Positions 10,108 through 21,164 of a stretch of 64,000 nucleotides of DNA are shown here, piece after piece. Position numbers and translations under genes: made by a program. This stretch comes from Octadecabacter algicola (GTDB lineage Bacteria; Pseudomonadota; Alphaproteobacteria; Rhodobacterales; Rhodobacteraceae): assembly GCF_021532625.1 (NCBI RefSeq), contig NZ_JAKGAR010000002.1:124001-188000 (forward strand). Direction: 5' to 3'. Position 1 is the stretch's first letter; the number at the start of each line of letters is the position of its first letter. The notes under the pieces are model-generated. The model did not search any database and was not told the origin of the DNA. It saw only the letters and a list, made by a program, of their open reading frames with translations.

Positions 10108-10228
10108 ATGCACAGCGGGCGGGATAGTCGCGCTTGAGCGTCCTGTCAAACCGATTCTGCTGCTTTTGTGGGGTTGTTCTTTCTTCGTGCCCTTGATCAA
10201 GTCTACGGACGAGGCGAAGGGGCGCAAA

Positions 10229-13200
10229 ATGACAGATAAACAGTGGGAATTTTGGGTCGATCGCGGCGGAACGTTTACCGACATTGTGGCGCGCACCCCC
10301 GACGGAGATGTGCGCACACATAAACTGTTGTCAGAAAACCCTGAACAATACGCCGATGCTGCCGTTCAAGGGGTTCATGACCTGATCGGAACGTCTGATC
10401 CAGCGCTTGGATCTATCTCAGCTGTTAAAATGGGCACCACGGTTGCAACCAATGCTTTGCTTGAACGCAAAGGCGAAAAAGTTCTGTTGTTGATCACGGA
10501 CGGGTATCGCGATCTTTTGAAAATAGGCTATCAGACCCGCCCAGATTTATTTGCATTGGAGATCGTTCGCCCAGAACTGCTGTATTCCGAGGTGGCTGAA
10601 GTTACCGAACGATTGGACGCTGAGGGCCATATTCTTGTGCCGCTAGATGAAGACGCGGTTCGTGTATCGCTGCAGCAGGCGTTTGATTCTGGCCTAAGGG
10701 CAGTCGCCGTTGCGTTTCTACATGCGTACCTTAACCCTGAACACGAAATTCGCGTGGCCCAGATCGCGACTGAGATCGGATTTACTCAGATAAGCACCAG
10801 TCATGAAGTCTCGCGCCTCGCCAAACTGGTCGGGCGCGGGGACACAACGGTGGTGGATGCTTATCTGTCGCCGATTCTGCGGCGCTATGTTGATCAGGTG
10901 GCAGGTGCTTTGGATGTGGGGCGTGTGTGTGAACGGTTGTTTTTCATGCAATCCAGCGGCGGGCTGACGGATGCCGCGCGGTTCCAAGGACGTGATGCCA
11001 TTCTGTCTGGTCCGGCGGGTGGGATTGTCGGCATGGTCAAAACCGCAGAGGCCGCAGGGCATCCCAAGTTGATCGGTTTCGACATGGGCGGCACCTCGAC
11101 GGATGTCAGCCACTACGCGGGCGAATATGAACGCTCGTTTGAAACCGAAGTCGCAGGCGTGCGTATGCGCGCGCCGATGATGGATATTCACACCGTTGCG
11201 GCGGGGGGCGGGTCGATCTGTCGTTTTGCGGATGGACGGTTCCAAGTGGGCCCTGAAAGTGCAGGCGCGAACCCTGGCCCAGCATGTTATCGACGCGGCG
11301 GTCCTTTGACCGTGACGGATTGCAACGTTCTCTTGGGAAAGTTGAACCCCGAACATTTCCCCCAGGTGTTTGGACCAAATGGGGACCAACCACTGGACGT
11401 GGCGACAGTTCGTGCAAAGTTTGAAGCGATGGCCGCCGACGTGGCACACGAAACAGGCAACGCCCCGCGGGCCGTAGAAGACATCGCTGAAGGATTCCTC
11501 GCGATTGCGGTCGATAACATGGCCAACGCGATCAAAAAGATCAGCGTTCAGCGCGGTCATGATGTGACGGACTATACCTTACAGTGTTTTGGCGGCGCGG
11601 GCGGGCAGCATGCGTGTTTGGTGGCCGAAGCCTTGGGCATGTCGCGTGTGCTGATCCATCCGTTCGCGGGTGTTTTGTCTGCATTCGGGATGGGGTTGGC
11701 TGAGCTGCGGGAACTTCGCGAAGTGCAGTTTGATGCGCCATTGTCGGATGTGAAACGTGCCGAGGGTGAACTGACGGCGATGACCAAAGACGCGCGTGAC
11801 ACTGTCTTCGGGCAGGGTGCCGCTGAAGTGCGTACGATGGCATGGGCGCATTTAAGGTACGACGGAACACAGCAGGACCTACGGGTGGGTTTTGGCAGCG
11901 CGGATGCCATGAAGGCCGCCTTTGAGACTGCACACCTCGCGCGGTTTGGCTTCACTAGCCCGAACGCTGATATCTTGTTTGAAATGCTAAGCGTCGAAGC
12001 GATTGGAGAGGGCGCGGACCTGCCGGACCTCGGCGTGAAAGCAGCACAAAACCCCGATCCAGTCGCGACCTATGACCGTCCCTTTTATGACCGTGAGACA
12101 ATGGGTGTCGGCGATAAAATCAACGGCCCCGCGATTGTTCTGGAACCAACAGGTACCAACGTCATCGAGGCTGGTTGGCAAGCCGAAGTAGATACGCTCG
12201 GCAATCTGATCCTTACGACGGACAACACCTCACGGTCTCTCAGCGCAAACAGTGACGCGGATCCCGTGGTGCTTGAAGTGATGTCCAATCTGTTCATGTC
12301 GGTGGCCGACCAAATGGGCGCAACGCTTGCCAACACCAGCCAGTCTGTAAACATTAAGGAACGGTTCGATTTTTCCTGCGCGATCTTTGACAGCGCGGGT
12401 GATCTGGTGGCCAACGCACCCCATGTGCCTGTGCACCTCGGGTCGATGTCAGACAGCATCAAAACGGTGATGAAGGGTTGGCCGGATGTAAAAGACGGCG
12501 ACGCGTTCATGCTCAATTCGCCGTACAACGGCGGCACCCATTTGCCTGACGTAACGGTGGTGACGCCTGTGTTCATCGACGGCAAACCTCGGTTCTGGCT
12601 GGGCTCTCGTGGGCACCATGCCGATATTGGGGGACGCACGCCGGGGTCTGCACCGCCAGACAGCAAGCACATCGATGAAGAAGGTGTGTTGATCGACAAC
12701 ATGAAGCTGGTTTCGGCGGGGCGTTTCCTTGAGGAAGACGCGCGTACGACGCTCGCATCGGGCAAGTACCCGTGCCGCAATCCAGATCAAAACATTGCTG
12801 ATCTAAAGGCGCAAGTGGCAGCCAATGCAACGGGCCAGGCTGAACTCAACCGTATATGTACCAGCTACGGCGCGGATGTGGTCAGCGCTTATATGGGGCA
12901 CGTGCAAGACAACGCCGAAGCCAGCGTGCGCCGGGTGATCGACAGCCTTTCGGATGGGATCTTTAGCTACCCAATGGACGAAGGCCAAAGCATTGAGGTT
13001 TCGATTACTGTCGACAAACCCAGTCGCTCGGCAACGGTCGACTTCACAGGCACCAGTGCACAGCATGCGGGTAACTACAATGCGCCTTATGCGGTGTGTC
13101 GCGCGGTGGTCTTGTATGTGTTCCGCACGCTTGTCGGATCTGCGATCCCGCTCAATGAGGGGTGTCTGAAACCGCTTAACATCATCGCGCCCGAAGGGAC

Positions 13201-13777
13201 GATGTTGAACCCAACTTATCCGGCTGCGGTGATTGCAGGGAATACAGAAGTGTCTCAGGCAACGTGCAATGCGCTTTTCGGCGCACTTGGCGTGATTGCT
13301 GGATCACAGGCGACAATGAACAACTTTGTTTGGGGCAATGAGGCGTTTCAGAACTACGAAACCATTGCGGGCGGAACAGGAGCGGGCCCTGATTTCGATG
13401 GCTGTGATGCAGTGCAAAGCCATATGACCAACACCCGCATGACAGACCCCGAAGTGCTGGAAAAACGCTTTCCTGTGCGCCTTGATCGCTTTGAGGTGAG
13501 GGATGGATCAGGGGGTAAAGGGGCGCATGTGGGCGGAAACGGTGCCCGCCGTATGATGACGTTCCTAGAACCCGTTACCGTTACGACGCTGTGTTCGCAC
13601 CGAATTGTGCCGCCCTTTGGTGGGGCAGGAGGTGGTGCCGGTACGGTTGGGCGCAACTGGGCTGTTTTGCCTGATGGCACGCGGCATGACCTGAGAGGAA
13701 ACGATGAAATTGACCTTCCAGCAGGCGGGCAATTCGTGATGGAAACACCCGGAGGCGGTGGTTGGGGCGAACCTTAA
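10229..13777 (+). CDS. 5-oxoprolinase / N-methylhydantoinase A-B fusion
   Basis: A 1182-residue fusion. Residues about 5-680 are hydantoinase A (FWVDRGGTFTDIVARTPDG, MGTTVATNALLERKGE, GFDMGGTSTDVS: the ATP-binding actin-like motifs); residues about 690-1180 are hydantoinase B (NSPYNGGTHLPDVTVVTP, RGHHADIGG, ending GGGGWG). Full-length fusions are usually ATP-dependent 5-oxoprolinases that open 5-oxo-L-proline to glutamate in the glutathione cycle; hydantoin substrates are possible. The in-frame start at 10166 adds 21 non-conserved residues and is rejected; the ATG at 10229 has GAAGGGG upstream. Confidence 0.9.
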   Translation: MTDKQWEFWVDRGGTFTDIVARTPDGDVRTHKLLSENPEQYADAAVQGVHDLIGTSDPALGSISAVKMGTTVATNALLERKGEKVLLLITDGYRDLLKIGYQTRPDLFALEIVRPELLYSEVAEVTERLDAEGHILVPLDEDAVRVSLQQAFDSGLRAVAVAFLHAYLNPEHEIRVAQIATEIGFTQISTSHEVSRLAKLVGRGDTTVVDAYLSPILRRYVDQVAGALDVGRVCERLFFMQSSGGLTDAARFQGRDAILSGPAGGIVGMVKTAEAAGHPKLIGFDMGGTSTDVSHYAGEYERSFETEVAGVRMRAPMMDIHTVAAGGGSICRFADGRFQVGPESAGANPGPACYRRGGPLTVTDCNVLLGKLNPEHFPQVFGPNGDQPLDVATVRAKFEAMAADVAHETGNAPRAVEDIAEGFLAIAVDNMANAIKKISVQRGHDVTDYTLQCFGGAGGQHACLVAEALGMSRVLIHPFAGVLSAFGMGLAELRELREVQFDAPLSDVKRAEGELTAMTKDARDTVFGQGAAEVRTMAWAHLRYDGTQQDLRVGFGSADAMKAAFETAHLARFGFTSPNADILFEMLSVEAIGEGADLPDLGVKAAQNPDPVATYDRPFYDRETMGVGDKINGPAIVLEPTGTNVIEAGWQAEVDTLGNLILTTDNTSRSLSANSDADPVVLEVMSNLFMSVADQMGATLANTSQSVNIKERFDFSCAIFDSAGDLVANAPHVPVHLGSMSDSIKTVMKGWPDVKDGDAFMLNSPYNGGTHLPDVTVVTPVFIDGKPRFWLGSRGHHADIGGRTPGSAPPDSKHIDEEGVLIDNMKLVSAGRFLEEDARTTLASGKYPCRNPDQNIADLKAQVAANATGQAELNRICTSYGADVVSAYMGHVQDNAEASVRRVIDSLSDGIFSYPMDEGQSIEVSITVDKPSRSATVDFTGTSAQHAGNYNAPYAVCRAVVLYVFRTLVGSAIPLNEGCLKPLNIIAPEGTMLNPTYPAAVIAGNTEVSQATCNALFGALGVIAGSQATMNNFVWGNEAFQNYETIAGGTGAGPDFDGCDAVQSHMTNTRMTDPEVLEKRFPVRLDRFEVRDGSGGKGAHVGGNGARRMMTFLEPVTVTTLCSHRIVPPFGGAGGGAGTVGRNWAVLPDGTRHDLRGNDEIDLPAGGQFVMETPGGGGWGEP

Positions 13778-15594: not shown

Positions 15595-16373
15595 CAGTTT
15601 GATCCCCCTTTAGGGCCGCCGGGCATGGCATCGAGTGCTTTGTCTAGCCAACCAAGGAAACCCTTGGGGGCCTCTGTGATGGGTTCAAGGAATGGGGCGA
15701 GGATATCGACCTCTTCCTTAAGGGATTGGTCCTTGGGCCGTGGTGGCAGGTATTTGTTCACGGGTTTTGTACCCATCTCTGGCATCAGGTCCATACCGCC
15801 GCGTTGCGCGGTCAATTGCGAGACATTACTGTCAGGATCTGCGAAGTCACCAAAGTGACGTGCGCCTGCAGGGCAGGTGCGCACGCAGGCAGGTTCACGG
15901 TCTTCTTCGGGTAGGTTTTCGTTATAGATGCGGTCCACACACAGCGTGCATTTCTTCATGACCTTTTCTTCGGCATCCATCTCACGGGCGCCATACGGGC
16001 ATGCCCACGCGCACAATCCACAGCCAATACAATCGCTTTCGTTGACCAGAACAATCCCGTCCTCGACCCGCTTGTAGCTGGCCCCTGTCGGGCAGACGGT
16101 GACGCATGGGGCGTCTTCGCAGTGCAGGCAGGATTTAGGGAAGTGGATCAGCTGAGCGGGGGCCGCCTCGGGCTGAATTTCATAGGAATGCACGCGGTTC
16201 AGAAACGTGCCGGTCGGATTCGCGCCATATGGGTCTTGGTCTGACAAGGGCGCGCCATAGTTTTCTGTGTTCCACCCTTTACAGGAAATGACGCAGGCAT
16301 GGCACCCGACACAGGTATCAAGGTCAATCACAAGCCCGAGTTTACGGTCCGTTGATGTGGGAAGCGTTGTCAT
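15594..16373 (-). CDS. soeB: SoeB, iron-sulfur subunit of sulfite-oxidising enzyme
   Basis: A 259-residue ferredoxin-like electron-transfer subunit with four cysteine groups for four [4Fe-4S] clusters: CVGCHACVISC, CLHCEDAPCVTVCP, CIGCGLCAWACP and CTLC...PACVRTCP. There is no signal peptide. A much longer frame upstream (to 16688) overlaps soeA and lacks any family sequence, so the start is placed at 16373, where ATG overlaps the stop of the small upstream gene (ATGA). It transfers electrons from SoeA to SoeC. Confidence 0.9.
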   Translation of the reverse strand: MTTLPTSTDRKLGLVIDLDTCVGCHACVISCKGWNTENYGAPLSDQDPYGANPTGTFLNRVHSYEIQPEAAPAQLIHFPKSCLHCEDAPCVTVCPTGASYKRVEDGIVLVNESDCIGCGLCAWACPYGAREMDAEEKVMKKCTLCVDRIYNENLPEEDREPACVRTCPAGARHFGDFADPDSNVSQLTAQRGGMDLMPEMGTKPVNKYLPPRPKDQSLKEEVDILAPFLEPITEAPKGFLGWLDKALDAMPGGPKGGSN

Positions 16374-16510
16374 GTGGTGGCCCCTAATTGAATGGGTCGG
16401 ATCAAGCTGACGGGTTCTTCCTTGCTGGCGTCCCATGTGGCGACGAACCAGATGAACGATCCAATCATCAAGGCGAGGAAGGCGAAGATGAGGAGCAGGG
16501 TGCGGATCAT
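16370..16510 (-). CDS. 46-residue single-span membrane protein between soeA and soeB
   Basis: A complete small gene: ATG at 16510-16508 overlaps the soeA stop (ATGA) and its TGA at 16372-16370 overlaps the soeB start (ATGA). The product begins MIRTLLLIFAFLALMIGS, has one hydrophobic stretch at residues 4-24, then WDASKEEPVSLIRPIQLGA. Coupling on both sides shows it is translated with the complex. Candidate roles are a small structural or assembly subunit of SoeABC, comparable to small accessory subunits of other membrane oxidoreductases. Function is inferred only from position; I know of no name for it. Confidence 0.8.
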   Translation of the reverse strand: MIRTLLLIFAFLALMIGSFIWFVATWDASKEEPVSLIRPIQLGATT

Positions 16511-19341
16511 TTGCCGACCTTCCATGCCTGTGATTTGGGCCCTTTTCCAACGGGGGATTCTTGTGGTGAGAATTCCGGTTTGGACTGGTCAGCCGCTGGG
16601 GCGTCTGTCTTTTCGATCTTAACGCGCAGGTCGAACCATGCGGCTTGGCCGGTGATCGGATCAGAATTGGACCAGCGCATGCCGTCACCTTTGGCAGGCA
16701 GCAATTCGTGGATCAGATGATTCAGCAAGAACCCTTCTTTGGTTTCGGGGGCGTCCTTGTCCAGCGCCCATGCACCTTTGCGTTTGCCAATGGCGTTCCA
16801 TGTCCAGACAGTGTTTTCGTTCAGGGCCGCCATATGGGCGACGGGGACGGTGATGGTACCGGATGGGCTGGTAACTTTGGCCCAATCGCCGTCCTCAAAC
16901 CCGTTGGCCTCCCAGATCTTGGTTGGCACATACAATGGGTTGCGTCCGTGGATTTGGCGTAGCCAAGCGTTCTGCGTTCCCCATGAGTGATACATCGCCA
17001 TCGGGCGCTGGGTTAGCGCGTGGACGTTGTATTCGTCACAGTCGATCATTTCGTCTGACAGCGGCGCATACCAGATCGGCAGCGGGTCCATTGTGTCCTT
17101 TACCTGCTGGCGCAGGTGATCCGGTGGTTGGACGCGTCCGTGACCCTCGGCGGCCAATTGCATACGGCGAAGCGGTTCAACGTAGGGGGTGAAAATGTAG
17201 GGCTGAACGGAATCATAGAACCCCATTTCTACTGCCCAGTTTTGGTAGGCCATGTTGAAGGGCTTATAATAAGACGCCTCTTCTGGGACGTGAGAGACCC
17301 AGAAACCGCCGTTCTGGATGTAGCTGTCCAACTGACCCTCATTGGGGTCTCCACGACCGTCTTGCAGCCCATCTTCGCCCATGCGCCAACCCGCCAAAGG
17401 CCCGATTCCGGGGCGGCGGATGTGGTTGGTGATGTAATCTGCGTAGTCTTCGTATTTTTGACTGCCGTCTTCGTTCACAAAGCCAGTAAGGCCAAGTCGC
17501 GCACCGAGTTCGCAAAGTACGGATTGAAAGCCGCGCACATCGCGGTCGGGTTCGACCACGGGCCAACGGATCGCGTCAGCCACGCCGTCGGCTTCGCTGA
17601 TGGGGCGATCCAACAGGCTGATGCAATCGTGGCGCTCAAGGTAGGTCGTGTCCGGCAGTATCAGGTCGGCATAGGCGACCATTTCGGATGAATAGGCGTC
17701 TGAGTATATGATGTGAGGGATGACGTAATCGCCGTTCTCATCCTTATCCGTCAGCATTTCCATGACGCCAGTCGTGTTCATCGAAGAATTCCACGACATA
17801 TTCGCCATATACATAAACAGCGTGTCGATCTTGTACGGATCACCTGCATGGGCATTGGAAATGACCATATGCATCATGCCATGCGCACTGAGAGGGTTTT
17901 CCCACGTATAGGCCTTGTCGATGCGAATGGCGGAACCATCTTCGTGCAGCATCAAATCATCTGGGCCATGGGGGTAACCAAGGTGTGGCCCATTGAGAGC
18001 GGCCCCTGGTGTGACTTTGCCGTGGGGTTTTGGGTGTGCGGTTGCGGGCTTGGGATAGGGCGGTTTGAACCGCATCCCGCCGGGGGTTTCGACTGCCCCA
18101 AGGATGATCTGCAAAGTATGGAGCGCACGGCACGTCTGGAACCCGTTCGAGTGTGCTGAAATCCCGCGCATAGCGTGCATCGACACAGGCCGGCCCACCA
18201 TCTTGTCGTGCTTCTTGCCGCGAAAGTCCGTCCACGAACGGTCCAGCACAATTTCTTCGTCAAAGGCGACGCGGGCCATATCCGCGGCAAGCCGTTTGAT
18301 CCGAGATGCTGAAATACCGGTCTTGTCGGCGGCTTCCTCGGGGGCGTATTTTGGATCAAGAAAACGATCTGCCATGAGGTGGAAAACCGGGCGATGTGTA
18401 ACACCAGCCGCGCGGTGGGTGCCTGAAAGGTCAGGTTCGACCCCTTGGCCATTCCATGGAGCAAGATGACCGGTGTTGCGATCGATTACCAACGGTTCGC
18501 CATCATCATCGCGCATCAACAGGCCGAATTGGTCTGACTTAGTGTCCTCATTCACAAGACAGGACGCGTTGGTGAACCGAGCAAGGTAATCAAGGTCGAG
18601 CTTGCCCGCCTTAAACAGCTCATGGATCAATGCCATGATTAGCAGCCCGTCCGTGCCCGGAGTGATGCCAAACCAATCGTCCGCCACGGCATTGTAGCCA
18701 CTGCGGATCGGGTTGACACCAACCATACGTGCGCCGCGGTCTTTGATCTTGCCGATGCCCATTTTGATCGGGTTGCTGTCGTGGTCTTCGGCGACCCCGA
18801 ACAGCACGAACATCTTCGTGTGGTCCCAATCGGGTTGGCCAAATTCCCAGAATGCGCCGCCCATCGTATAGATGCCCGCCGCCGCCATGTTCACCGAACA
18901 GAACCCACCATGTGCGGCGTAGTTCGGTGTGCCGAACCCCTGCGCCCACAATGACGTAAACGATTGCGACTGATCGCGCCCTGTGAAGAACGCTAGCTTT
19001 TCGGGGGCTTCCTTGCGGATAGGTTCCAGCCACTCAGTGGCCAATGTTAGGGCTTCTTCCCAGCTGATTTCCTCAAACTCGCCCGACCCGCGTTCACCGA
19101 CCCGTTTCAGCGGCGCTTTTAGGCGTGACGGCGCGTTAACCTGCATGATCCCTGCCGAACCTTTGGCGCAAAGAACGCCTCGGTTGACGGGGTGGTCTTT
19201 GTTGCCTTCGATATATGCAACTTTACCATCCTTCATGTGGACATTGATGCCGCACCGACACGCGCACATGTAGCAGGTCGTCTTACGCACCTCATCAGAG
19301 ACGGGGGGCGACGTGTCGAGGTTTGGCTGGTCTTTGGGCAT
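16507..19341 (-). CDS. soeA: SoeA, molybdopterin subunit of cytoplasmic sulfite-oxidising enzyme
   Basis: A 944-residue DMSO-reductase-family molybdoenzyme. The N-terminus has the [4Fe-4S] motif CYMCACRC...CAKG (residues about 23-58) and no Tat signal, so the enzyme faces the cytoplasm, as SoeA does. The bis-MGD-binding and C-terminal molydopterin-dinucleotide-binding domains follow (..HSWGTQNAWLRQIHGRNPLYV..). Function: sulfite to sulfate with electrons to quinone via SoeB/SoeC. It starts 12 bp after the TauE-like gene in a run containing xsc, the source of sulfite, which distinguishes it from related formate or polysulfide enzymes. Confidence 0.87.
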   Translation of the reverse strand: MPKDQPNLDTSPPVSDEVRKTTCYMCACRCGINVHMKDGKVAYIEGNKDHPVNRGVLCAKGSAGIMQVNAPSRLKAPLKRVGERGSGEFEEISWEEALTLATEWLEPIRKEAPEKLAFFTGRDQSQSFTSLWAQGFGTPNYAAHGGFCSVNMAAAGIYTMGGAFWEFGQPDWDHTKMFVLFGVAEDHDSNPIKMGIGKIKDRGARMVGVNPIRSGYNAVADDWFGITPGTDGLLIMALIHELFKAGKLDLDYLARFTNASCLVNEDTKSDQFGLLMRDDDGEPLVIDRNTGHLAPWNGQGVEPDLSGTHRAAGVTHRPVFHLMADRFLDPKYAPEEAADKTGISASRIKRLAADMARVAFDEEIVLDRSWTDFRGKKHDKMVGRPVSMHAMRGISAHSNGFQTCRALHTLQIILGAVETPGGMRFKPPYPKPATAHPKPHGKVTPGAALNGPHLGYPHGPDDLMLHEDGSAIRIDKAYTWENPLSAHGMMHMVISNAHAGDPYKIDTLFMYMANMSWNSSMNTTGVMEMLTDKDENGDYVIPHIIYSDAYSSEMVAYADLILPDTTYLERHDCISLLDRPISEADGVADAIRWPVVEPDRDVRGFQSVLCELGARLGLTGFVNEDGSQKYEDYADYITNHIRRPGIGPLAGWRMGEDGLQDGRGDPNEGQLDSYIQNGGFWVSHVPEEASYYKPFNMAYQNWAVEMGFYDSVQPYIFTPYVEPLRRMQLAAEGHGRVQPPDHLRQQVKDTMDPLPIWYAPLSDEMIDCDEYNVHALTQRPMAMYHSWGTQNAWLRQIHGRNPLYVPTKIWEANGFEDGDWAKVTSPSGTITVPVAHMAALNENTVWTWNAIGKRKGAWALDKDAPETKEGFLLNHLIHELLPAKGDGMRWSNSDPITGQAAWFDLRVKIEKTDAPAADQSKPEFSPQESPVGKGPKSQAWKVGK

Positions 19342-19353
19342 TGAAAGAAACCT

Positions 19354-20118
19354 CTAGCTAACAAGTGTTCGGATGAGCCCAGCAGACGCGAGACCGATCA
19401 AAAGGATAAGGCAAAATGGACGATAGTAGGCTGATAGCCGTTCGGTAAAGAGCTGTTGCCCTAAAAGAACGCCAAACATTGTTGGGCCTGCAAAGACCAA
19501 ACCGCGTGCTGCGCCAGAGAAATCCATCACGCCAAACAGCAGCAGCACAACCATCGACGATGCGGAGCCAAGAAACAAATAGAGCACAAGCGAGGCCCGC
19601 ATCACACGGGCAGATTGATCTGCAGCGAGAACGTAAAACGCCACGACCATGCCGCCGACATGGGCAACACCGGACACAATTCCGGCGACAATACCCGTGC
19701 CATAAAGACCCGGTTTGCTTGCCAAGAAAGACAACCGCACTTTGGCCAGCTGGCTGATCGCAAGAACAACAATAACGCTGAGCGCCAGTGCCTTTGATGT
19801 CTCAACCGGAAGAGACAACGTAAGCCACAATCCAATTGGCCAGCCAATCAATGCGCTGATCACGAGGCCATAAGCCATTGGGCGGTCTGCTTCGGCCCAG
19901 CCGTTTTTCATCATCAGCAGTGATGCTGACATTTCCAGCCACCACAGCATTGGGATCAGCTCAATCGGGGGCAGGATAACGACGGCTGTGGCCATAACCA
20001 TTGCAGACAATGCGAAGCCCGAGAACCCACGTACGATCCCAGCCAACAGGGTCAGTCCAACAAGAATGAAGAAATGGTCTCGGCTAAGCTCCGTTGTCTC
20101 TAGAATCCAGTCCATCAA
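19354..20118 (-). CDS. tauZ: TauE/SafE-family anion exporter (TauZ-like)
   Basis: A 254-residue membrane protein with roughly eight hydrophobic segments and the TauE/SafE repeat (LLAGIVRGFSGFALSAM, GIVAGIVSGVAHVGG). Members next to xsc are proposed to export sulfite, sulfate or sulfoacetate formed during taurine breakdown. Its ATG overlaps the ackA stop by four bases and it is 12 bp upstream of soeA, so it sits between carbon and sulfur branches of the pathway. The gene name is by context; the transported anion is not shown by sequence. Confidence 0.75.
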   Translation of the reverse strand: MMDWILETTELSRDHFFILVGLTLLAGIVRGFSGFALSAMVMATAVVILPPIELIPMLWWLEMSASLLMMKNGWAEADRPMAYGLVISALIGWPIGLWLTLSLPVETSKALALSVIVVLAISQLAKVRLSFLASKPGLYGTGIVAGIVSGVAHVGGMVVAFYVLAADQSARVMRASLVLYLFLGSASSMVVLLLFGVMDFSGAARGLVFAGPTMFGVLLGQQLFTERLSAYYRPFCLILLIGLASAGLIRTLVS

Positions 20119-21164
20119 GTGGTGACCTGCATCGCATCTTGCGCGATCTGACGCTCTTCGCGGGCCTCTACGGTATGAAAGGGAACATCGCCCAAGAAGC
20201 TCAAATGCGCCATTATACGGTCGCGAATAGGTGCGCTGTTTTCACCAATGCCGCCGGTGAACGCCACAGCGTCGATACCGCCCATTGCGACAATCGCACT
20301 TCCCGCATGGCGCGCCGCCCAGTAACAGAAATGATCAACCGCAAACTGTGCGTCAGTGCCGTCAGACGCCAGCAAGTCGCGCATATCGTTCGTCCCAGCG
20401 AGCCCCTTAAGACCTGATTGTTTGTTGAGAAGGGTACCCGCCGCGTCGATCCCAATCTCTTCCGCGATCCGTAGCACGGCCATACCATCAATGCAGCCCG
20501 TGCGCGTGCCCATGGTCAGCCCCTCGAGGGGGGAGTATCCCATGGATGTGGCAACAGATTTACCATCAAGGATCGCACAGAGAGATGCGCCATTGCCGAG
20601 GTGAAGCGCCAGAAGGCGCTTGGGAATACCAGCGCCGAAATGATCCACCATTGATGCATAAGACAACCCGTGAAACCCGTAACGTCGTATGCCCGCGTCG
20701 CGCTGGGCTTTGGGCAAGGCATAGGTGGTCGCCAAATCGGGTTGTGTGGCGTGAAACGCGGTGTCAAAGCTAGCAAACTGCGGCAGGTCAGGGCGTACGG
20801 TTGCCATCGCATGGATGCCCGCCAAGGCAGGGGGATTGTGTAGCGGGGCAAGCGGTACATTCGCCTCGATCGTAGCAATAGCCGCGTCAGTTAGGCGTGT
20901 TGGTGCGGTCAGCTTTGTGCCGCCATGCACGACGCGGTGAGCAACGGCTGTAATCTCGTGCCCAGAAAGCGCATCAAGAATGACAGCAATGCCAGCCCCA
21001 TGATCATGGGCCGCGACAGTCTGTTTTTGCCCTGTGACTGACAGGACAGCGTCACCATCTGCGTCCCCCAATCCGGTGAGGGTCGCGCCTGCAATTTCAG
21101 TAAGGGTACCGTCAAAGATTGCGGCCTTAATAGAAGACGATCCGGTGTTGAGAACCAGAATCAT
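20115..21164 (-). CDS. ackA: acetate/propionate kinase
   Basis: A 349-residue acetokinase-family protein with the N-terminal phosphate-binding motif NTGSSSIKAAIFD, the central HRVVHGG and GFHGLSY motifs and HLGNGASLCAI, and the C-terminal FTGGIGENS block. It is about 50 residues shorter than E. coli AckA. It would turn acetyl phosphate from Xsc into acetate and ATP. It is coupled by four-base overlaps to pta upstream and the TauE-like gene downstream. Confidence 0.9.
   Translation of the reverse strand: MILVLNTGSSSIKAAIFDGTLTEIAGATLTGLGDADGDAVLSVTGQKQTVAAHDHGAGIAVILDALSGHEITAVAHRVVHGGTKLTAPTRLTDAAIATIEANVPLAPLHNPPALAGIHAMATVRPDLPQFASFDTAFHATQPDLATTYALPKAQRDAGIRRYGFHGLSYASMVDHFGAGIPKRLLALHLGNGASLCAILDGKSVATSMGYSPLEGLTMGTRTGCIDGMAVLRIAEEIGIDAAGTLLNKQSGLKGLAGTNDMRDLLASDGTDAQFAVDHFCYWAARHAGSAIVAMGGIDAVAFTGGIGENSAPIRDRIMAHLSFLGDVPFHTVEAREERQIAQDAMQVTT

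Follow-up and report, generated by a model that had tools for sequence, protein, structure and literature searches.

Between soeA and soeB in Octadecabacter algicola lies a frame of 46 residues, which raises the question of whether an extra protein is encoded within the operon of an enzyme described with three subunits and, if so, what this protein does. The window, i.e., the whole stretch of DNA that was analyzed, comprises 64,000 nucleotides. A first-pass annotation had taken the frame, labelled soeX or X here (a name used in the present work only), for a fourth, small subunit or an assembly factor, arguing mainly from its double translational coupling. Overall, this interpretation is partly supported: judging from the sequences compared, the evidence for a function of X comes from conservation of its core and not from the coupling.

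SoeABC sulfite oxidation is common in marine Rhodobacteraceae degrading taurine, DMSP and other organosulfur compounds. The domains of the host operon fit a Soe-type complex, with molybdopterin and Fe4S4 domains, a 4Fe-4S dicluster protein and a DmsC anchor (Table 1); soeC overlaps soeB by 1 nt, and it also matches PF03916 (NrfD) slightly under the cut-off of that model. No Soe model was among the NCBIfam matches listed for the window, and the naming as SoeABC, with sulfite as the putative substrate, rests on gene order, domains and neighbours. The soeA–soeB–soeC order and the expected domains are shared with SoeABC of Allochromatium vinosum, Aquifex aeolicus and Ruegeria pomeroyi (SPO3559–SPO3557). 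In the accessible parts of the sources, SPO3557–3559 are tabulated as soeC, soeB and soeA (PMC4334477) and Soe is listed as SoeABC (review PMC8076601); these descriptions have three subunits, as the first-pass annotation had it, whereas here a further gene stands between soeA and soeB. Among the rows compared, the nearest relative in SoeA+SoeB was Octadecabacter sp. B2R22, with 97% identity.

Two other frames of the window may be mentioned. A TauE-like gene lies upstream of soeA, in the 19354-21164 region of the minus strand, and overlaps the end of an acetate-kinase-like ORF (20115-21164; identity assigned by eye). The 1203-aa ORF at 10166-13777 resembles, by eye, a fused hydantoinase/oxoprolinase-type protein.

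Table 1. Coordinates of the soe genes, of X and of its parts in the window
Feature	Position	Strand	Description and evidence
soeA, molybdopterin catalytic subunit, 944 aa	16507..19341	minus	Pfam Molybdop_Fe4S4 (PF04879), Molybdopterin (PF00384)
soeB, 4Fe-4S subunit, 259 aa	15594..16373	minus	Pfam Fer4_11 (PF13247) and related
soeC, DmsC-type membrane anchor, 290 aa	14722..15594	minus	Pfam DmsC (PF04976) above cut-off
X (soeX)	16370..16510	minus	46-aa predicted single-span membrane protein; stop included; ATGA at both ends
ATGA overlap, soeA stop/X start	16507..16510	minus	read from sequence
ATGA overlap, X stop/soeB start	16370..16373	minus	read from sequence
GGAAGG, Shine-Dalgarno-like	16518..16523	minus	in the terminal part of soeA, ahead of the X start; sequence
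X conserved core, residues 1-34	16409..16510	minus	membrane span, motif GSF-x-W-x-x-A-TWD; alignments, dN/dS
X variable tail, residues 35-46	16373..16408	minus	dN/dS 0.96 in 7 Octadecabacter sequences

The sequence bears out the 46-residue ORF with ATGA at both ends that had been reported between the two genes: on the minus strand, the X ATG (16510-16508) shares nucleotides with the soeA stop (16509-16507), as does the X stop (16372-16370) with the soeB ATG (16373-16371). Translation of this minus-strand ORF gives a 46-aa product, MIRTLLLIFAFLALMIGSFIWFVATWDASKEEPVSLIRPIQLGATT, which would lengthen to 51 aa if an upstream in-frame ATG inside soeA were used as the start. A single hydrophobic stretch, at about residues 4-25, agrees with the one membrane span assigned earlier; the best 17-residue mean hydropathy, taken in the 51-aa frame containing X, is 2.62. 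Scans for promoters and terminators gave results near the shuffle level. Each of the 27 X junctions examined had a Shine-Dalgarno-like match of 3–4 nt in its soeA end. In alignments, the N-terminus of X is mostly basic and the region after the span acidic. With the positive-inside rule as a guide to membrane orientation, this charge distribution suggests that X would be oriented with its N-terminus inside and its C-terminus outside.

Distribution, selection and history of X

A single-sequence search detected relatives of X in 28 of 295 Rhodobacteraceae genomes (E<=1e-3, own genome included), and a profile built from 26 X sequences found it in 29 of the 295 (E<=0.01), with one match each. The 29 genomes represent 28 genera, and all 29 copies are located between soeA and soeB, so that the recurrence of a conserved single-span frame at other Rhodobacteraceae junctions, for which the first-pass annotation had proposed a search, was confirmed. 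A soeA match (E<=1e-150) was present in 220 of the 295 genomes; X was found in 29 of these 220 versus none of the 75 others (Fisher p 1.8e-4), and its absence from the remaining 191 makes it a minority trait among soeA-bearing members of the family. Of the X junctions, 27 were read among 120 fetched junctions and two further ones separately. The 120 comprised the 100 best soeA matches and 20 of the next 50 listed, hand-picked to include both known X genomes of that part; 27/120 is consequently not an unbiased rate, and 29/220 is the better one.

In a named collection, 104 stretches encoded a relative of X, and soeA and soeB were found beside it in all of the best 80 of the 104. One locus counted in the 80 (L251, by its length the same contig as L026) has soeA and soeB in broken frames and for this reason was left out of the 79-locus counts below. 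The collection and the 295-genome set overlap (at least 13 contigs agree exactly in length between them) and are not independent. X-bearing names include Octadecabacter, Pseudooctadecabacter, Yoonia, Loktanella, Roseovarius, Nereida, Aestuariivita and Roseibaca. Two long proteins (L061 and L146) were not counted as X.

Outside the family, the best profile E-value in 289 genomes of the class, two family genomes aside, was 0.001; the best outside-family matches were stretches inside frames of 224-357 aa and were read as chance. The description of X as uncatalogued was upheld, with no significant match in Pfam, NCBIfam or PDB. For the window protein, Pfam gave nothing and NCBIfam two weak matches far below the cut-off; the 26 members gave scattered weak matches, each involving 1-3 members, in Pfam (best E 0.0045) and NCBIfam (best E 0.0091). 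The profile search of PDB returned nothing significant (best E 0.22), a plasmid collection yielded no match to X, and no report of X was found in open-licence literature as covered by titles, the starts of abstracts and parts of a few papers.

Selection was assessed by pairwise Nei-Gojobori counting with the Jukes-Cantor correction, pooled over pairs that are not independent. For a 25-codon core of X, dN/dS was 0.139 in 10 Octadecabacter/Pseudooctadecabacter sequences, 0.148 in 10 Roseovarius sequences and 0.233 in the other 59 sequences, and the +1 and +2 frames of the same core gave 0.84-4.99 in the Octadecabacter/Pseudooctadecabacter and Roseovarius groups. Across seven 46-residue Octadecabacter copies, the value was 0.305 for the whole gene, 0.220 for residues 2-34 and 0.96 for the tail (residues 35-46), i.e., no constraint. 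The core is under purifying selection. X is thus constrained, though less than soeB, for which dN/dS was 0.047 (codon-aligned, nine operons of the same group). Within the GSF...TWD motif, S, F, T and W are invariant in 74 copies, and G, the first W, A and D are present in 95-97% of the same copies. The codon-substitution check named in the first-pass annotation therefore came out for the core (0.14-0.23) and against the tail (0.96); of the span and short polar tail described there, the span core is conserved and the tail is not. Tail length and sequence vary widely in relatives outside Octadecabacter, some of which reach about 80 aa through their tails, and we read the tail as a frame-keeping bridge to soeB.

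Since its relatives are bound to one junction and purifying selection acts in its own frame alone, X appears, from these sequence comparisons, to be a genuine, conserved gene for a single-span membrane protein. A spurious or chance ORF, an idea that its shortness and lack of a significant family match might encourage, is in practice refuted by the dN/dS values and by conservation across genomes.

Distances between X sequences correlate with those between the SoeA+SoeB sequences of the same loci (Mantel r 0.41, 74 loci; no permutation out of 2000 reached this value). A tree of SoeA+SoeB was built from 124 rows (76 with X, 40 X-less from the family and 8 outgroup; 76 of the 80 X rows were kept), and on it the distribution of X demands at least 14 changes, of which 8 are imposed by starred branches; the mean after shuffling was 38.1. 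With a SoeB tree of 112 rows, built without eight of 120 rows having a short soeB, the count was 16 changes versus 23.5 shuffled. Two groups consist of X rows only, one of 29 Yoonia/Loktanella rows (support 89) and one of 10 Octadecabacter/Pseudooctadecabacter rows (starred); as X rows were found by carrying X and about one genome per genus had been drawn for the X-less rows, such uniform clades are partly a sampling effect. Some X rows also branch close to the family base, where the forks of the SoeA+SoeB tree are weakly supported and one outgroup row (L298) is placed inside the family. Because every examined X occupies the same site, early gain followed by repeated loss is the simplest account. 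We read the patchy distribution as such loss; it could also reflect transfer of the operon.

The soeA–soeB junction as a coupling slot

soeA and soeB adjoin directly at 32 of the 120 junctions. A small gap (25-255 nt) separates them at 72 and a large one (526-1179 nt) at the remaining 16; X was found in 25 of the small and two of the large gaps. We define a chain as a run of ORFs from soeA to soeB in which each start overlaps the previous stop (NTGA or TGATG type). Small gaps had a chain in 24 of 25 cases with X (5.0 expected) and in 39 of 47 without it (9.3 expected), and large gaps had one in 13 of 16 (0.5 expected), with expectations taken from shuffles with random phase, a null that ignores relatedness. 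In the named loci, 71 of 79 had a chain. The other 8, three of them the Yoonia loci described below, lack it, and so do 8 X-less small gaps and 3 large ones. The lengths of the X-less small gaps are 1 modulo 3 in 39 of 47 cases (24 of 31 distinct lengths), and they are too varied for one inherited insert. None of the 47 spacers matched the X profile at E<=1.

Double coupling had been put forward as strong evidence of function. This does not hold, as X-less small-gap junctions are doubly coupled too, in 39 of 47 cases; coupling alone is weak evidence for a functional protein, and an ATGA at both ends of a tiny ORF is by itself no proof of a functional peptide. The frame kept in X-less gaps indicates instead that the junction tends to hold a translatable bridge whatever occupies it. 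The soeA–soeB junction is a coupling slot, of which X is one conserved, patchily distributed occupant, and the sole small occupant for which conservation at the protein level was observed. The operon is thus a Soe operon with an extra conserved, predicted one-span protein in such a slot.

Outside the family, all 26 soeA–soeB junctions read, drawn from 69 outside-family genomes with a soeA match, are direct, with spacings of -4 in 20, -8 in 1, +1 in 4 and +2 in 1. At soeB–soeC inside the family, only 1 of 115 gaps exceeds 20 nt (measured in 115 of 119 loci). Together, these two observations mark the inserts, as far as seen, as a Rhodobacteraceae trait restricted to the soeA–soeB junction. Inside the family, the junction would have become a slot entered by repeats and whole genes.

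That most inserts stay translatable from overlap to overlap can be understood if coupling would be lost across about 20 nt of untranslated sequence. According to the available text of PMC10666635, an intergenic distance of ~20 nt nearly abolishes termination-reinitiation, and short overlaps are enriched among complex subunits; the review PMC12548453, in its accessible part, describes short ORFs that merely deliver ribosomes. These principles would account for the inserts between soeA and soeB, and the relay part of the slot can, by analogy, be regarded as a new instance of a known principle. The ATGA overlap type and its link to complex subunits are as described, in the portions available, in PMC10666635 and PMC6728339, with the difference that coupling is here extended through an inserted third frame. 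Another relative is the axe-txe minigene, a mini-ORF that, according to PMC8708949, influences in cis how the following gene is translated, its frame and distance being critical; unlike X, it has two codons and no conserved product. With its many genera and insert lengths, and a frame that is mostly kept, the junction is a natural experiment on translational coupling.

Candidate roles of X

X is set apart from relay frames by its conserved core. Its likeliest role, which on location and conservation we consider somewhat more probable than all others combined, would be that of a putative Soe accessory subunit that lies beside SoeC and is synthesized in step with SoeA and SoeB. The ribosome would end soeA, restart at the ATGA on X, end X and restart at the next ATGA on soeB, and SoeA, X and SoeB may thereby be made in a set proportion. 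The X core would insert as one helix, with its basic start inside and its acidic TWD end outside, and could pack beside the SoeC anchor, stabilizing or tuning the membrane part of the complex; the tail would mainly carry the ribosome in frame to soeB. Absence from 191 of 220 genomes and at least 14 state changes indicate that the enzyme evidently works without X. SoeC has a median length of 290 aa and similar hydropathy counts in all three groups compared (74, 19 and 20 sequences, with or without X), which gives no sign of a lost contact and no support for an X–SoeC contact; single-site frequency differences by X state are present in SoeC and are confounded by ancestry. If X is part of the complex, it would be an overlooked component of the sulfite enzyme in Octadecabacter, Yoonia, Roseovarius and relatives.

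The analogy behind this proposal is CydX, whose gene is located in the operon of cytochrome bd oxidase: like the X of the window, it has fewer than 50 residues and one span and is encoded in the operon of a membrane enzyme. X is thus CydX-like in being short, single-spanning and part of an enzyme operon; it has no significant sequence relation to CydX-like subunits or membership of a known small-subunit family in the Pfam, NCBIfam and PDB searches. In the parts of PMC4325964 and PMC6005532 that were available, CydX is a 37-aa member of the complex that is needed for function.

An assembly or insertion factor, acting while SoeC and SoeAB are joined and not remaining in the complex, is possible but doubtful. 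Location and conservation serve this reading and that of an accessory subunit equally; synthesis between SoeA and SoeB fits co-translational assembly, and a patchy presence suits a helper better than a core subunit, whereas the genes of assembly factors often stand apart from the run of subunit genes.

It is distinctly unlikely that X is a regulatory or transport partner, serving, e.g., sulfite or sulfate export, which shares the operon and does not touch the Soe complex. The TauE-like exporter gene upstream of soeA in the window and the LysE-type exporter genes that fill the same slot in some genomes would suit such a partner, yet at 40 of the 80 named X loci, some of them incomplete, the window TauE-like protein gave no match (E<=1e-20), and X still adjoins soeB when another gene separates it from soeA.

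Very unlikely is a mere coupling relay, in which the peptide is functionless and its frame only ferries the ribosome from soeA to soeB. Frames of this kind do occur in 39 of 47 X-less small gaps, with none matching X, and the tail drifts (dN/dS 0.96 in 7 sequences); against it, the protein sequence of the core is kept (0.14-0.23) and recognizable in 29 genomes of 28 genera. Moreover, in two Yoonia vestfoldensis loci and one Yoonia MAG (L222, L229, L233), X ends 95-99 nt before soeB, and the core is kept although the chain to soeB is broken.

Other occupants of the slot

Many of the X-less spacers that were folded give strong hairpins. Three of the 47, all hairpin-forming (L044, L129 and L075), were tested for further copies, which were found for each in its genome (G284, G200 and G187); these three spacers are therefore dispersed repeats. 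In some of 24 copies, a stop codon stands at the start of the repeat element, with no clear rule, and a repeat pattern search of the window's own genome gave 4 matches versus 9 for the reversed control.

The X-less spacers resemble MIRUs, repeats that enter a gene junction with a coupled ORF; in the accessible part of the review PMC12548453, the MIRU ORF becomes coupled, at -4 spacing, at a mycobacterial insertion site. Membership of a dispersed repeat family holds for the 3 of 3 spacers tested, and an internal ORF coupled by short overlaps for 39 of the 47 spacers at the soe junction. Here the elements fold into hairpins and comprise more than one kind, and X is no repeat; the likeness is one of description only. 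A further step, in which X arose within the slot as a new gene out of a repeat-type spacer and was then recruited as an enzyme subunit, the slot being a translation relay nursery, seems unlikely. If true, it would mean that landing repeats or genes are translated in step with a membrane enzyme whenever a coupled frame is kept.

Larger occupants encode LysE-type exporters, alpha/beta hydrolases, DUF6882 proteins and one weakly Imm10-like protein, and X adjoins soeB whenever a larger gene and X share the slot. LysE-like proteins were found at five loci (L036, L061, L190, L242 and L244; Pfam on L242, the rest by sequence resemblance), and alpha/beta-hydrolase-like ones at L051, L054, L079, L087, L091, L099, L139, L179, L188 and L199 (Pfam on L188, the rest by resemblance; L091 and L179 are apparently the same contig). 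DUF6882 proteins are encoded between soeA and X at L207, L212 and L224, and at L196 the same position holds a 121-aa protein with a weak Imm10 match under the Pfam cut-off.
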